From: Candidatus Gastranaerophilales bacterium
GTDB lineage: Bacteria; Cyanobacteriota; Vampirovibrionia; Gastranaerophilales; Gastranaerophilaceae
Length of the DNA: 64,000 nucleotides
Direction: 5' to 3'
Assembly (NCBI GenBank): GCA_944323625.1
Contig: CALUTD010000010.1
Span: forward strand, 1-64,000
In this document: piece by piece, positions 54,610 to 61,574 of the stretch
How the letters are laid out: the number at the start of each line of letters is the position of its first letter
Position numbering within the stretch: the stretch's first letter is position 1
Made by a program: the position numbers and the translations under genes
Notes under the pieces: generated by a model
The model's database searches: none
The model's input: only the letters and a program-made list of their open reading frames with translations
Told to the model about the DNA's origin: nothing

Positions 54610-54735
54610 TTTTTACCTGTTTAAGAAAACATTTTAAACAAATTTTTAAAAATTGTAAACTTAACACTAGAAAAATTTTTAAAATTGTAGTAAAATTACA
54701 GAGCAATAAGTTAAGCGAAAAGGGGAAAGTAAATT

Positions 54736-54861
54736 ATGAATATGAATATTTTTAATTTTGCACAAAAAGTTTTAGGCCTTTTCGCATCATGGCTCACTTT
54801 TGAAAGCAGAGAATGGGCTTGGTGCCCCGTTCGCGTTAACAATCGTATTGACAGATTTTAA
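54736..54861 (+). CDS. trpL: Candidate trp leader peptide
   Basis: A 41-codon ORF 319 bases before trpE, with AGGGGAAAG upstream of its ATG. It has three Trp codons (19, 27, 29), including WAW at 27-29, far above normal Trp use. The second of that pair (54820-54822) abuts the left arm GTGCCCC of a terminator hairpin, and the stop codon falls in the hairpin loop. A ribosome stalled on scarce Trp-tRNA would cover the arm and let transcription continue. This is the layout of attenuation leaders. The gene symbol is by position and design, not homology. Confidence 0.6.
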   Translation: MNMNIFNFAQKVLGLFASWLTFESREWAWCPVRVNNRIDRF

Positions 54862-54890
54862 ACAATACTTGTTGGGGCACGGACTTTTTT
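54822..54890 (+). terminator. Candidate trp attenuator terminator
   Basis: GTGCCCC pairs with GGGGCAC (54874-54880). Inside, AACAA and GTATTG pair with CAATAC and TTGTT, giving about 18 bp with a 9-base and a 2-base bulge on the left. GGAC and six T follow. A short alternative hairpin GGGC-TTGGT-GCCC (54816-54828) competes for the left arm. Confidence 0.55.
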
Positions 54891-54938
54891 AAAAACATAT
54901 CGTTTGTTATGTTTTATGTTTAATCTAGTGTCGCCCGC

Positions 54939-55039
54939 ATTTTTCGCCGTGTCATCCACGCCGAAAAATTGGGACTCACGCTTTTAAAGCGCCACTCACA
55001 AAAAGTTACTCACACCCTTTGGGTTTATCGTAACTTTTT
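54939..55039 (+). promoter_or_regulatory. Structured part of the trp leader
   Basis: Two further hairpins lie between the attenuator and trpE. ATTTTTCGCCGTG/CACGCCGAAAAAT (54939-54969) has 12 of 13 pairs. AAAAAGTTAC/GTAACTTTTT (55000-55039) encloses ACCC/GGGT. The stretch is richer in GC than its flanks and has no gene. It could add regulation or be a repeat remnant. 55040-55179 shows nothing further. Confidence 0.4.
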
Positions 55040-55179
55040 GCTCGGACAGTTCTTGTGCCGTATCTGTTAAATATTAAATATAAAAAGTACGATTTGTTAA
55101 CACTTGACTGAAGGTATTTTTCACGAAACAATAAAATATCTTCGTTTTTTGTTATGTTAAAACAGAAAGAGAGCTATAA

Positions 55180-56649
55180 ATGATTATTAAACCATCAATT
55201 GAAGAAATAAAAAATATAAAAAAAGATTATAAATGTATACCCGTTTCGACCGAAATATTTTCTGATATTACTACTCCCATACAGGTATTAAGGATTTTAA
55301 AAGAAAAGGATAATCACTGTTTTTTACTTGAAAGTGTTGAAAAAGCCGAACAAGCCGGAAGATATTCATTTCTAGGATTTGAACCTTCAATGGAAATAAC
55401 CTGTCAGAATGGAGAACTTAAAATAAAATCTAAAAAAAAGGAAGAGGAAATAATTACAAATACTCCTCAAGATTATATAAAAAAACTGCTAGAAGAGTAT
55501 AAAAGCCCTGTTTTTGATGATTTACCGCCTTTTACAGGAGGGCTTGCAGGCTACTTCGCTTTTGATTTTATTAAATATTTTGAACCGAAATTAAACCTAA
55601 ATGCTAATGATGATGAGAATTTTAAAGATGTAGATTTAATGCTTTTTGATAAAATTATTGCTTTTGATAATGTTAAAAACAAAATTATACTGATAGTAAA
55701 TATAAAAACTGATGATATTGAGAAAAATTATCAAAAGGGTATAAAAGAACTTGAAAGGTTAAAGAATTTAATTCAGAACGGAAAACCTTGCAAAATAAAA
55801 AAAGGCAGATTAAAATCTGAATTTAGAGCTTTATTTAATAAAGAACAATTTTGTTCAATGGTCGAAAAAGCAAAACACTACATAAAAGAGGGGGATATTT
55901 TTCAGGTTGTTCTATCAAACCGTTTTGATGCAGATTATGAAGGTGACTTGATAAATACGTATAGAACTCTAAGAACAATAAATCCGTCACCTTATATGTT
56001 TTATTTCGGAAGCAATGATTTAGAAATAGCAGGTGCTTCTCCCGAAACGCTTTTAAAGCTCAAAAACGGAAGTTTGTATACTTTCCCTCTTGCAGGTACA
56101 AGAAAAAGAGGAAAAACAAGGCAAGAAGATTTAGAACTTGAAAAAGATTTGCTGAATGATGAAAAAGAGCTGGCAGAACATAATATGCTTGTGGATTTGG
56201 GAAGAAACGATACAGGAAGGATTTCAAAATTCGGAAGTGTAAAAGTCGAAAAATATATGACAATCGAAAGATTTTCACATGTTATGCATATAGGTTCAAC
56301 TGTTACCGGGGAGTTAAGAGAGGACAAAACAAGGTTAGATGCAATAGGTTCAATTCTGCCTGCAGGAACTCTATCTGGTGCGCCTAAGATAAGAGCCTGT
56401 GAAATAATAAATGAACTTGAAAATAATAAACGGGGAATATATGGCGGCGCTATAGGATATCTTGATTTTACGGGAAATTTGGATACCTGTATTGCAATAA
56501 GAATTGCTTACAAGAAAAATAATAAAGTATTTGTAAGAGTCGGTGCCGGAATAGTTTATGACAGCATAAGCGAAAATGAATATATTGAATGCGAAAATAA
56601 ATCAAAAGCAATAATGAATGCATTAAAAATATCACAGGAGGTTTTATGA
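55180..56649 (+). CDS. trpE: Anthranilate synthase component I
   Basis: Makes anthranilate from chorismate with TrpG. The feedback site LLESVEKAEQAGRYSFLGFEP near the N-terminus binds tryptophan. The catalytic part has DIFQVVLSNRF, GASPETLLKL, FPLAGTRKRG, DLGRNDTGRISKFGSV and LPAGTLSGAPKIRACEII. The 489-residue length is typical. AAGAGAG precedes the ATG. First structural gene of trpEGDCFBA, overlapping trpG by 4 bases. Confidence 0.97.
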   Translation: MIIKPSIEEIKNIKKDYKCIPVSTEIFSDITTPIQVLRILKEKDNHCFLLESVEKAEQAGRYSFLGFEPSMEITCQNGELKIKSKKKEEEIITNTPQDYIKKLLEEYKSPVFDDLPPFTGGLAGYFAFDFIKYFEPKLNLNANDDENFKDVDLMLFDKIIAFDNVKNKIILIVNIKTDDIEKNYQKGIKELERLKNLIQNGKPCKIKKGRLKSEFRALFNKEQFCSMVEKAKHYIKEGDIFQVVLSNRFDADYEGDLINTYRTLRTINPSPYMFYFGSNDLEIAGASPETLLKLKNGSLYTFPLAGTRKRGKTRQEDLELEKDLLNDEKELAEHNMLVDLGRNDTGRISKFGSVKVEKYMTIERFSHVMHIGSTVTGELREDKTRLDAIGSILPAGTLSGAPKIRACEIINELENNKRGIYGGAIGYLDFTGNLDTCIAIRIAYKKNNKVFVRVGAGIVYDSISENEYIECENKSKAIMNALKISQEVL

Positions 56650-57221
56650 TACTATTAATAGATAACTTTGACAGTTTTTCATATAACCTTTATCAGTTAA
56701 TAGGTGAATTAAATCCTCAAATAAAAGTTATAAGAAATAATGAATTAACACCTGAAGAAATTAAAAATTTAAACCCCGATAGTATAGTAATATCTCCGGG
56801 GCCGGGGAAACCTAAAGATGCCGGTAATTGCGAAGATATAATAAAATATTTTAAAGGAATTAAACCGATTTTAGGTATATGCCTCGGTCATCAGGCAATA
56901 TGTGAGGTATTTGGCGCAAAAATTACTTACGCAAAAGAAATAATGCACGGTAAAACATCTGAAATAACAATTGATAATACCTGCTCAATCTTTAAGGGAT
57001 TACCGCAGAAAATCAAAGTAGCAAGATACCATTCACTGGCGGCAGACGAAAGAACAATGCCCGAAGAACTAAAAATCATTGCCAAAACTGATGACAATGT
57101 AATAATGGGAGTAAAACACAAAGATTATGAAATATACGGACTGCAGTTCCATCCGGAGTCTATATTAACTCCTGACGGAAAAGTAATAATAAAAAATTTT
57201 TTGGAAACGGTAAAATTATGA
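56646..57221 (+). CDS. trpG: Anthranilate synthase component II (glutamine amidotransferase)
   Basis: A 191-residue class I amidotransferase that supplies ammonia to TrpE. The catalytic Cys lies in GICLGHQAICE near residue 80, His and Glu in LQFHPESILT, and the oxyanion region in SPGPGKPKDAG. A closely related PabA can serve folate synthesis, and a single copy may serve both. Overlaps trpE and trpD by 4 bases each. Confidence 0.95.
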   Translation: MILLIDNFDSFSYNLYQLIGELNPQIKVIRNNELTPEEIKNLNPDSIVISPGPGKPKDAGNCEDIIKYFKGIKPILGICLGHQAICEVFGAKITYAKEIMHGKTSEITIDNTCSIFKGLPQKIKVARYHSLAADERTMPEELKIIAKTDDNVIMGVKHKDYEIYGLQFHPESILTPDGKVIIKNFLETVKL

Positions 57222-58234
57222 TAACAAAAGCACTGAGAACATTAATACAAGGTCAAAATCTTGACTATAAAACAGCTAAAGACATTATGTATATGATAAC
57301 CCAAGGAGATGTTGAAGATTCACAAATTGCAGCCTTCTTGACAGCATTAAAAATGAAAGGTGAAACAACCGAAGAAATTACGGCCGCAGCGGAAGTTATG
57401 AAAGAAAAATGCATTAAAACAGAGCTGCCCGATTATAATACTCTTGATATAGTAGGAACAGGCGGAGATATGTCAGATACATTTAATATATCAACCGCAT
57501 CGGCATTTGTAGCGGCAGCAGCCGGTATACCGATTGCAAAACACGGAAACAGAGCTCTGACAAGCAAAGCAGGTTCAATTGACGTACTTGAGGCACTTGG
57601 AATAAATGTAAATAAAACACCGCAGCAGGAAAAAGAAATATTTAACAGAATAAATATTTGTTTTATGCAGGCACAAAAACATCACCCGTCAATGAAGTAT
57701 GCATCTAAAGTCAGAAAAGAATTAAAATTCAGAACTTTATTTAATATTTTAGGGCCGCTGACAAACCCTGCCGGCGCAAAATCTCAACTTTTCGGGGTTT
57801 TTGATGAATCACTTGTCAACACTCTTACAAAAGTAATATCAAATTTGGGCGTAAATAATGTACTTGTTGTTCACGGGAAAGACGGCCTTGACGAAGCAAC
57901 CGTTACTGATGAAACTGTTGTATCGGAAGGAAGAAACGGTAAAATAACGGATTATACAATAAAACCCGAAGATTTCGGACTAAAAAGATATACTTTAACA
58001 GATATTAAAGGCGGTAGCGCTCAGGATAACGCTCAAATAATAAAAAATATATTTGAAAGTAAAGAATCAGGGGCAAAAAAAGACATTATTATTCTTAATA
58101 GTGCTCTAGCTCTCTATACGTTCGGAAAAACAACTTCAATAAAAGAAGGTGTAAAACTTGCACGTATAATAATTGACTCAGGACTTGCACTTGATAAACT
58201 AAATAAATATATAACAGTTTCAAACGAGGTCTAA
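57218..58234 (+). CDS. trpD: Anthranilate phosphoribosyltransferase
   Basis: Transfers phosphoribose from PRPP to anthranilate. Motifs: DIVGTGGDMSDTFNIST (PRPP loop), KHGNRALTSKAGSIDVLEALG, HPSMKYASKVRKELKFRTLFNILGPLTNPA and GLDEATVTDET. The 338-residue length is typical and separate from trpG, not fused. Overlaps trpG by 4 bases and abuts trpC. Confidence 0.97.
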   Translation: MITKALRTLIQGQNLDYKTAKDIMYMITQGDVEDSQIAAFLTALKMKGETTEEITAAAEVMKEKCIKTELPDYNTLDIVGTGGDMSDTFNISTASAFVAAAAGIPIAKHGNRALTSKAGSIDVLEALGINVNKTPQQEKEIFNRINICFMQAQKHHPSMKYASKVRKELKFRTLFNILGPLTNPAGAKSQLFGVFDESLVNTLTKVISNLGVNNVLVVHGKDGLDEATVTDETVVSEGRNGKITDYTIKPEDFGLKRYTLTDIKGGSAQDNAQIIKNIFESKESGAKKDIIILNSALALYTFGKTTSIKEGVKLARIIIDSGLALDKLNKYITVSNEV

Positions 58235-59026
58235 ATGAATATACTTGATAAAATAGTTGAAAAAACTCTGCTTAGAGTAGAAAAATTAAAACGCGGAACA
58301 AATATAAACGAATTAAAAGATGAGGCATACAAAATCAAAAAAGAAGCATTTAAATTTGAAAATGCTTTAAAAACGGATGATATTGCTTTTATTTGCGAAA
58401 TAAAAAAAGCTTCTCCTTCAAAAGGAATAATTGCACAAAACTTTCCTTTTAAAGATATAGCACTTGAATACGAAAAAGCAGGCGCAAATGCCATTTCTGT
58501 TCTGACAGAGCCTGACTTCTTTTTAGGAGCAAATGAATATTTAAAAGAAATTTCAAAAATTATAAATATTCCAATTCTAAGAAAAGATTTTATAATAGAT
58601 GAAATACAAATATATGAATCAAAAATCATAGGTGCAGATGCAATACTTTTAATATGTTCAATTTTAGATGAAGAAACTTTAAAAGATTTTATAACAATTG
58701 CAGATTCATTGGGACTTTCATGCCTGGTTGAAACACATAATGAAGAAGAGATTCAAAAAGCAATAAAAGCAAAAGCAAGGATAATCGGAGTTAATAACCG
58801 AAATTTAAAAGATTTTTCTGTAGATATAAAAAACAGTATTAATTTAAAGAAATTTGTTCCCTCAAATATAATATTCGTATCGGAAAGTGGTATAAAAGAA
58901 CATCCTCAAATAAAAGAACTTAAGAAAAATAGTGTAAATGCAGTTTTAATAGGCGAAACATTTATGAAGTCCCAAAATAAAGAACTTGAACTCTCAATAT
59001 TAAAAGGAGAAATAAATGAAAGTTAA
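58235..59026 (+). CDS. trpC: Indole-3-glycerol phosphate synthase
   Basis: A 263-residue TIM barrel closing the indole ring. Motifs: FICEIKKASPSKGII (catalytic Lys), ANAISVLTEPDFFLGA, ILRKDFIIDEIQIYES, LVETHNEEEI, IGVNNRNLKDF and FVSESGIK. It is not fused to trpF, unlike in E. coli. It starts immediately after trpD and overlaps trpF by 11 bases. Confidence 0.97.
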   Translation: MNILDKIVEKTLLRVEKLKRGTNINELKDEAYKIKKEAFKFENALKTDDIAFICEIKKASPSKGIIAQNFPFKDIALEYEKAGANAISVLTEPDFFLGANEYLKEISKIINIPILRKDFIIDEIQIYESKIIGADAILLICSILDEETLKDFITIADSLGLSCLVETHNEEEIQKAIKAKARIIGVNNRNLKDFSVDIKNSINLKKFVPSNIIFVSESGIKEHPQIKELKKNSVNAVLIGETFMKSQNKELELSILKGEINES

Positions 59027-59624
59027 AATATGCGGATTGAAAACCGTTGAAGATATTCAATATATAAACGAATTTAAACCGGATTTTGCAGGTTTTATTT
59101 TCGCACCTCAAAGTAAAAGAAAAATATCTTTTGAACAGGCACTTTTAATGAAGCAAGAACTGAATAAAAATATTAAATCCGTTGGAGTATTTTCTGATGA
59201 CAGTATTGAAAATATACTTACTGCCGTAAAAAATAATATAATTGATTTTATTCAGCTTCACGGTGATGAAAGTAATGATTATATTGAAATCTTAAAATCA
59301 AAAACAAAAGCTCCCATAATAAAAGCGTTAAAAGCAGATAATGAATTGAAAGAAAAGATAAATACAACAAAAGCCGATTATGTTTTAATAGATTCATCGG
59401 ATAAAAATTCGTTTGGAGGAACAGGTAAAGTTTTTGATTGGGGATTAATCCCCGAGTGTAATAAAAAGATATTTTTAGCGGGCGGATTGAACATTCAAAA
59501 TATAGAATCTGCAATAAAAACGGTTAATCCATACTGCGTTGATATAAATAGCGGTGTGGAAACAGATGGAAAAAAAGACCCAAAAAAAATTGAAGAAATA
59601 ATGAATTTTATAAAAAGGATATAA
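59016..59624 (+). CDS. trpF: Phosphoribosylanthranilate isomerase
   Basis: A 202-residue TIM barrel performing the Amadori rearrangement. The catalytic Cys is in [10 protein letters not shown]. Other motifs are [42 protein letters not shown] (general acid Asp, phosphate loop) and LAGGLNIQN with DINSGVET. Overlaps trpC by 11 bases; two bases before trpB. Confidence 0.96.
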
Positions 59625-59626
59625 AA

Positions 59627-60811
59627 ATGAGTAAAACAAAATTTGGACAATACGGCGGACAATATATACCCGAAATTCTTATGACAGAAATAATAAACCT
59701 TGAAACAGCATACGAAAAATACAAAAATGATGAAAAATTTAACAATGACCTTAATGAACTTTTAAAAAACTATGCAGGCCGCCCTTCGTTATTATATTTT
59801 GCAAAAAATATGACGGAAGATTTAAACGGAGCAAAAATATATCTTAAAAGAGAAGACCTTAATCATACCGGTTCTCATAAAATCAATAACGTATTAGGTC
59901 AGGCGCTTTTAGCAAAATATATGGGAAAAAAACGCATAATAGCAGAAACAGGAGCAGGCCAGCACGGCGTTGCAACTGCAACCGCCGCTGCATTATTAGG
60001 GTTGGAATGTGAAATATTTATGGGGAGAGAAGATACAATAAGGCAAGCTCTTAATGTATACAGAATGGAATTACTGGGTGCAAAAGTAAATTCAGTAACA
60101 TCAGGTACGCAAACATTGAAAGATGCCGTTAATGAAGCAATGAGAGAATGGGCAAACAGAACAGAAGATACACTCTATGTGCTTGGTTCCGTTATGGGAC
60201 CCCATCCATTCCCGACAATCGTAAGAGATTTCCAAAGCATAATAAGCAAAGAAGCAAGACAACAAATACTTGAAAAAGAATCAAAACTCCCTAATGCGGT
60301 TATAGCCTGTGTAGGAGGCGGAAGTAACGCGATGGGAATATTTTATAACTTTATAAATGATAAAGAAGTACAATTAATAGGTTGTGAAGCTGCAGGACTG
60401 GGAATTGATACAGATAAACACGCAGCAACAATGACAAAAGGCAGAATAGGAATATTCCACGGTATGAAATCTTTGTTCTGTCAAGATAAAAACGGTCAAA
60501 TAGCACCTGTTTATTCAATTTCTGCAGGTTTAGACTACCCCGGGATAGGTCCCGAACACGCTTATCTTAAAGAAACAGGAAGAGCTAAGTATGTTCCTAT
60601 AACTGATGAAGAAGCAGTAGAAGCTTTTGAATACTTATCAAAAACAGAAGGTATTATTCCGGCTATTGAAAGTGCACACGCCGTTGCATACGCAAAGAAA
60701 ATTGCACCTTCAATGAAAAAAGATGAAATAATAATAATATGTTTATCCGGAAGGGGAGATAAAGACGTAGCATCAATTGCGAAATACAGAGGAAGGATTA
60801 TCAATGAGTAA
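59627..60811 (+). CDS. trpB: Tryptophan synthase beta chain
   Basis: A 394-residue PLP enzyme joining indole and serine. The Schiff-base Lys is in [18 protein letters not shown]. Other motifs are [17 protein letters not shown], the PLP phosphate loop [10 protein letters not shown] and [13 protein letters not shown]. It is of the standard TrpB1 type. Overlaps trpA by 8 bases; channels indole from TrpA. Confidence 0.98.
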
Positions 60812-61574
60812 TATACATAAAGCATTTGAAAATAAAAAAGCATTTATAGGGTTTTTGACCGCCGGCGACCCTGATATAGAAACAACAAAAGAATGTATAA
60901 TAGCAATGGAAGAAGCCGGGGCGGATTTAATAGAAATCGGTATACCGTTTTCGGACCCAATAGCAGAAGGTATTGTAATACAAGGTGCTAATATAAGAGC
61001 CCTTGAATCCGAAACTTGTTTGGATGATGTATTTAAACTTGTTAAATCCGTCAGAACAAAAACAAATATTCCGATTGTCTTTCTTACATACATAAATCCG
61101 ATATTTAATTACGGATATGAAAACTTCTTTAAAACCTGTAAAGAAGCGGGTGTTGACGGTATAATAATACCTGATTTGCCATACGAAGAAAAAGAAGAAA
61201 TAAAGCATACAGCAGAAAAATATGAGATTGACATTATTTCTTTGATTGCTCCCACCTCGCATGAACGTATACTAAAAATTGCAAAAGATGCAAAGGGTTT
61301 TGTATACATAGTATCCTCCATGGGGGTTACAGGCATGCGAAAAGAAATAACAACAGATGTTGAATCTATTGTAAAACTCGTAAAAGAAATAACCAAAGTT
61401 CCTGCGGCCATAGGTTTTGGCATAAATACCCCCGAGCAGGCAAAACATTTTTCTCAAATTTCAGATGGAGTTATAGTAGGAAGCGCAATAGTAAAAATTA
61501 TTGAAAAATACGGTAAAGATGCGCCTGAGTATGTTTATAACTACGTAAAAGAAATGAAAAACGCAATTATATAA
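60804..61574 (+). CDS. trpA: Tryptophan synthase alpha chain
   Basis: A 256-residue TIM barrel that cleaves indole-3-glycerol phosphate. Catalytic Glu in [15 protein letters not shown] and Asp in [14 protein letters not shown]; phosphate site in GFGINTPEQ and [10 protein letters not shown]. The usual SDPxADG has Glu at Ala-Asp-Gly here (IAEG). Start at 60804 after GGAAGGAT, inside the end of trpB; an earlier in-frame start at 60777 lacks such a site. Last gene of the operon. Confidence 0.96.

Follow-up and report, generated by a model that had tools for sequence, protein, structure and literature searches.

A probable ribosome-mediated attenuator of the trp operon in one genus of Gastranaerophilales, with a leader gene that outlasts the operon

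Gastranaerophilales are gut bacteria, non-photosynthetic relatives of cyanobacteria. The window analysed here (64,000 nt of the Gastranaerophilales genome G000, placed in this order by its relatives in the databases) carries a short ORF with Trp codons ahead of a trp operon, and the question is whether, and by which RNA rearrangement, this leader makes the operon respond to tryptophan. An initial annotation of the window had proposed a ribosome-mediated attenuator in which a ribosome stalled at the Trp codons covers the arm of an adjoining terminator. In the literature searched, ribosome-mediated trp attenuation was not reported from non-photosynthetic Cyanobacteriota. As for other regulators, a search for a TrpR homologue (PF01371) gave no match in the window genome, and Rfam, searched for the T-box and the known trp leader, gave none in the leader of the window and none at six further trp-linked loci. 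No similar leaders were seen in front of hisG, ilvB or leuA in the window genome.

The comparison sample consisted of 41 genomes of one Gastranaerophilales genus, all of them probably metagenome-assembled. Homologues of the leader ORF were found by peptide profile search in 32 of the 41, one copy in each, which is not explicable by chance; the same search gave no convincing homologue in the rest of the family. The best matches outside the genus (G041, G312, G204, G251) were read as chance on inspection, and pattern matches elsewhere in G000 and in other genera (L158, L162–L164, L166, L168) lacked a leader. This trpE is present in 12 of the 41 genomes, 11 of which have a leader homologue directly upstream. 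In ten of the genomes that lack trpE the leader precedes trpB, in 11 genomes no trp gene lies behind it, and seven to eight genomes have no leader at all. Judged from this comparison, the ORF is a conserved trp leader of one Gastranaerophilales genus.

The single trpE of the genus that lacks a leader, that of G009 (loci considered: L019 in G009, L101 in G386), groups with another genus and probably represents a replacement by transfer. In other families of the order (L112–L119) trpE is only about 45% identical and leaderless, so the trp operon of this genus may be horizontally acquired.

The features of the window locus are listed in Table 1.

Table 1. Features of the trp leader region and the operon in the window
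Feature	Position	Strand	Basis or remark
Leader promoter (putative)	54661..54696	+	TTAACACTAG element, weak −35 nearby, −10 TAAAAT at 54691–54696
Leader Shine-Dalgarno sequence (SD), 5' arm of helix H1, GCGAAAAGG	54715..54725	+	H1 own versus swapped arms, 29/5000
Leader peptide ORF	54736..54861	+	41 codons, stop 54859–54861; has homologues ahead of trpE or trpB in 21 genomes
Helix H1, 3' arm CCTTTTCGC, inside the ORF	54777..54785	+	complementary to the leader's own SD
Conserved motif W-A-W-C-P-V-R; putative sensing Trp codon 54820–54822	54814..54834	+	peptide-level conservation of A, C, P, V/I, K/R
First-noted hairpin with GGAC and T6	54822..54890	+	overlaps segment A; dG −17.1; terminator-like
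Segment A, GTTAACAATCGTA	54835..54847	+	starts 12 nt after the last Trp codon
Dispersed repeat between A and B	54919..55049	+	match to one other copy begins at 54890
Segment B, TACGATTTGTTAAC, partner of A	55088..55101	+	pairing and swap tests
Terminator-like hairpin C:D (GACTGAAGGTATTTT...AAAATATCTTCG), then TTTTTT	55106..55150	+	hairpin 55106–55144; covaries across leaders
trpE SD, AGAAAGAGAG	55164..55173	+	conserved in trpE-type leaders
trp operon trpE, trpG, trpD, trpC, trpF, trpB, trpA	55180..61574	+	NCBIfam matches

As initially annotated, the operon behind the leader is complete (trpEGDCFBA), and the 41-codon ORF contains three Trp codons (starting at 54790, 54814 and 54820), two of them as WAW. 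The full peptide is MNMNIFNFAQKVLGLFASWLTFESREWAWCPVRVNNRIDRF, ending in EWAWCPVRVNNRIDRF before the stop codon. Indels in the leader alignment are multiples of three. In the W-A-W-C-P-V-K/R motif of trp-linked leaders changes at third positions dominate (119, 94 and 359 at codon positions 1, 2 and 3), and Ala is encoded by four codons and Lys/Arg by six. The third-position excess points to translation of the ORF when taken with the frame-preserving indels, and to selection on the peptide at this motif when taken with the varied Ala and Lys/Arg codons. Only one Trp codon is invariant across leaders: the last one, found in 21/21 leaders with trp genes downstream versus 0/11 without, although some of the 21 may share history by transfer, given that the trpE tree only partly matches the rpoB tree. 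Relatives devoid of the ORF or the Trp codons, initially named as evidence that would speak against attenuation, were found only where the trp genes are gone, except for G009 (trpE, no leader).

RNA pairing was assessed by a duplex-swap test comparing each leader's own arms with swapped ones in 5000 swaps, very close relatives being excluded; RNAalifold run on whole leader alignments gave no useful consensus structure owing to indels. The spacer between the last Trp codon and segment A is exactly 12 nt, without indels across leaders. In A:B 122 of 128 cells are paired over 8 core pairs, with both-sided changes at four of these pairs (2, 3, 4 and 6). The duplex scores −13.2 kcal/mol for own versus −10.2 kcal/mol for swapped arms, and 0/5000 swaps are as good, in a test that corrects for relatedness incompletely. 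Changes in segment A are spread evenly over codon positions (83, 64, 55), which fits selection at the RNA level. The alignment of trp leaders from related genomes suggested in the initial annotation thus revealed Trp codon 54820 conserved 12 nt before a conserved stem. An outer extension of A:B (codons C-P-V with the bases after B) was not significant, 817/5000 swaps being as good; this part overlaps the terminator foot in L013, L014, L016, L018 and L130, and through this overlap an early-formed A:B could hinder the terminator.

The downstream hairpin C:D likewise pairs better with own than with swapped arms (−8.3 versus −3.9; 0/5000 swaps as good), and the base of its stem adjoins the U run. 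Equilibrium folding predicts that C:D forms whether or not A is free, with partial competition between A:B and C:D in three leaders only (L018, L130, L010). Pairing of B with D as an antiterminator had no support in the swap test, and no other alternative partner of B was well supported. Neither A:B nor C:D was seen in most leaders without trp genes behind them (unlinked leaders). Insertion of the dispersed repeat between A and B places B and C:D in the window about 240 nt further downstream.

A third helix, H1, would close the leader SD. The SD region is a perfect 9-bp match to positions 54777–54785 in the window, and in linked as well as unlinked leaders the SD pairs with codons lying some 60 nt further on (GCGAAAAGG:CCUUUUCGC in the window; AAGUAAAAAGG:CCUUUUUACUU in L015). 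Overall 29/5000 swaps were as good, while the unlinked set alone was not significant (1197/5000). The promoter element is kept upstream of both kinds of leaders.

On these grounds we consider a ribosome-mediated trp attenuator in this genus the probable reading, and we infer the stall, the direction of regulation and the effect of A:B on termination as follows. The leader RNA would start near 54703. A ribosome would load on the leader SD before H1 closes it and translate toward the Trp codon at 54820. When halted with this codon in its A site, a ribosome covers about 9 nt beyond it. With charged tRNA-Trp scarce, the ribosome would stall at 54820 and segment A would stay free to pair with B; with Trp plentiful, it would run over A and prevent or delay the pairing. 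A:B should therefore mark starvation and, by the logic of a biosynthetic operon, favour expression. The stem would weaken the terminator C:D (in some species, another hairpin sharing the flank of B), giving readthrough into trpE under starvation. Judging from the conserved sequence features, the leader probably switches the trp genes on when tryptophan runs out.

The terminator initially assigned to this role is the hairpin at 54822–54880, and its description proved accurate. The outer arms are GTGCCCC (54822–54828) and GGGGCAC (54874–54880), the inner arms GTATTG and CAATAC; the ORF ends at a stop codon in the inner loop, the left arm begins with the final G of the third Trp codon, and GGAC separates the stem from six T at 54885–54890. 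The codon overlapping the arm, the stability of the hairpin (Table 1) and the T6 are the basis of a model in which this hairpin is the Trp-controlled terminator and a ribosome stalled at 54814–54822 covers the left arm, so that no antiterminator is needed. However, the hairpin has no counterpart in the other ten trpE-type leaders compared, and its fold is only a little better than that of shuffled sequences (z −1.73, 10/200 as good; z −2.15 for the whole leader). Moreover, the model leaves the covarying stem A:B out of account, and in the presence of Trp the ribosome would be positioned on the stop codon within the loop. In Escherichia coli ribosomes repress terminators close behind a stop codon (PMC4824070), and this terminator would be of that kind. 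We therefore regard direct occlusion as an unlikely explanation of the control.

What endures of the initial annotation is a translated leader with a Trp codon tied to trp genes, a conserved stem and a terminator ahead; blocking of a terminator arm by the stalled ribosome is not supported as a general rule. As A starts 12 nt past the Trp codon, just outside the stalled ribosome, a stall should let A:B form instead of blocking it. By its sequence, 54822–54890 is a genome-specific terminator-like element. In the window genome it would add a terminator with a left arm hidden under a stalled ribosome; direct occlusion may thus operate there as a local addition, and the hairpin, which overlaps A, may replace or add to the displaced elements. 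In pyrBI-type ribosome-occlusion attenuators the position of the ribosome alone decides whether the terminator forms. The model built on the T6 hairpin resembles this type, to which the conserved architecture adds stem A:B and a separate downstream terminator.

The conserved elements could also act on translation. Freed B would then pair just upstream of the trpE SD and hide it, A:B would release trpE translation, and C:D would serve structure or stability only. When A is masked, B indeed folds in several leaders with the region between the terminator and the SD, and a CUCU stretch pairs with the trpE SD in L010, L011 and L012; but the pairing of B with the region before the SD is weak (194/5000) and absent in L020, and the CUCU stretch is not conserved. 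Translational attenuation is accordingly improbable in our estimate.

Compared with classical trpL-type attenuators (enterobacteria, Corynebacterium, Streptomyces; PMC1262725), the proposed attenuator shares a short ORF with Trp codons before the first trp gene, an RNA stem near these codons and a terminator hairpin with a U run. Unlike in the trpL type, invariance is confined to one Trp codon, segment A is outside the footprint of the stalled ribosome, equilibrium folding shows no clear mutually exclusive antiterminator/terminator pair, the amino-acid motif A-W-C-P-V/I-K/R is conserved beyond its codons, and the peptide is long (40 codons), with an SD hidden by the ORF's own sequence.

The role of the Trp codon is further illuminated by genomes that lack the operon. 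In G027 and G033 the gene order is ribE-ribBA-(fam5)-yhcH-like gene-LEADER-trp operon-tpiA; G016 has the same left flank and G025 the same right flank. G035, the sister of G027 on the rpoB tree, has the order of G027 minus only the trp operon (LEADER-tpiA). In G020 and the G032/G026 pair we found yhcH-like gene-LEADER-other gene-tpiA, and in G018 and G005 yhcH-like gene-LEADER-other genes. Such shared flanks without trp genes show excision of the operon from behind a leader that stayed, in no fewer than three lineages as judged from one rpoB tree and synteny; agreement of the trpE and trpB trees with the rpoB tree is only partial. The locus thus occurs in three states (full operon, trpBA only, no trp genes), a natural experiment that separates features kept for sensing (Trp codon, A:B) from those retained for another purpose (promoter, SD helix, C-P-V/I-K/R).

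None of the 11 unlinked leaders has the invariant Trp codon, in whose place Tyr, Leu or Val is encoded. Their segment A has been altered or has disappeared; promoter, SD, reading frame and C-P-V/I-K/R are mostly kept. Leaders before trpB alone keep the Trp codon, A:B and C:D. G018 and G005 have orthologous trpB in another operon, and their leaders have lost the Trp codon. The cis position of a trp gene therefore matters, and the comparison supports Trp sensing in cis.

Two further observations concern these genomes. In G018 and G005 (L185, L186) trpB follows a sugar-kinase-like gene at a site separate from the leader, and some operon-less genomes of the genus carry a second, distant trpB, about 56% identical (L193, L195, L196, L197). 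The unlinked leaders L145 (G005) and L142 (G003) end in strong terminator hairpins of their own and look like independent small transcription units.

Such persisting units would be expected if the leader were a stand-alone small gene, encoding a trans-acting peptide or small RNA and ended by C:D, with incidental Trp codons and with trpE served by its own promoter (TTTACA-N17-TACTGT) inside the C:D region; the promoter-like hexamers are conserved in trpE-type leaders. A trans role, however, does not predict that the Trp codon and A:B are tied to trp genes in cis (21/21 versus 0/11), and C:D keeps its pairing while its sequence changes, unlike a DNA operator. We hold this for very unlikely.

The unlinked leaders themselves may be no more than leftovers of excised operons that drift without a function, a serious candidate to which we give slightly less than an even chance. 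The seven to eight leaderless genomes agree with it, as does the G032 group, in which non-synonymous differences equal or outnumber synonymous ones (4:3, 6:3, 10:1). Against drift, several lineages of separate origin still have promoter, SD, frame and C-P-V/I-K/R, changes in the motif are commonest at third positions even here (41, 51 and 101 at codon positions 1, 2 and 3), and the ORF diverges by 7–11% versus 28–34% just downstream.

A further reading, put forward tentatively and in our estimate less likely than not, is a function of the peptide itself, exerted through its C-P-V/I-K/R end. The end might make the ribosome pause on A through the nascent chain when Trp is plentiful, or the product might be a trans-acting small protein; attenuation would have been built on top, and the peptide gene would survive operon deletion with Trp changed to Tyr or Leu. 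The persistence of unlinked leaders, the peptide-level conservation and the terminators in G005 and G003 hint at, but only suggest, such a role beyond attenuation. The leaderless genomes and the mostly non-synonymous changes of the G032 group speak against it. A leader that outlives its operon and then loses the Trp codon points both to its job and to a possible second one, and own functions of attenuator leader peptides become directly testable in this genus. In Sinorhizobium, where trpL gives rise to rnTrpL and peTrpL, a role beyond attenuation has been reported for peTrpL (PMC7298713). Here too the trp leader RNA and peptide may act beyond cis attenuation, although here the evidence comes from evolution only (survival of the leader gene after operon loss) and the peptides are unrelated by eye (14 aa in Sinorhizobium versus about 40 aa here).

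The dispersed repeat (window 54890–55049; L002–L008; L014; L129) is about 130–160 nt long, with up to 20 matches in the window genome and one end reading CACTAGATTAAA. Insertions of it beside trp leaders occur in three genomes (between A and B, after B, after C:D), and terminator regions are possibly preferred.
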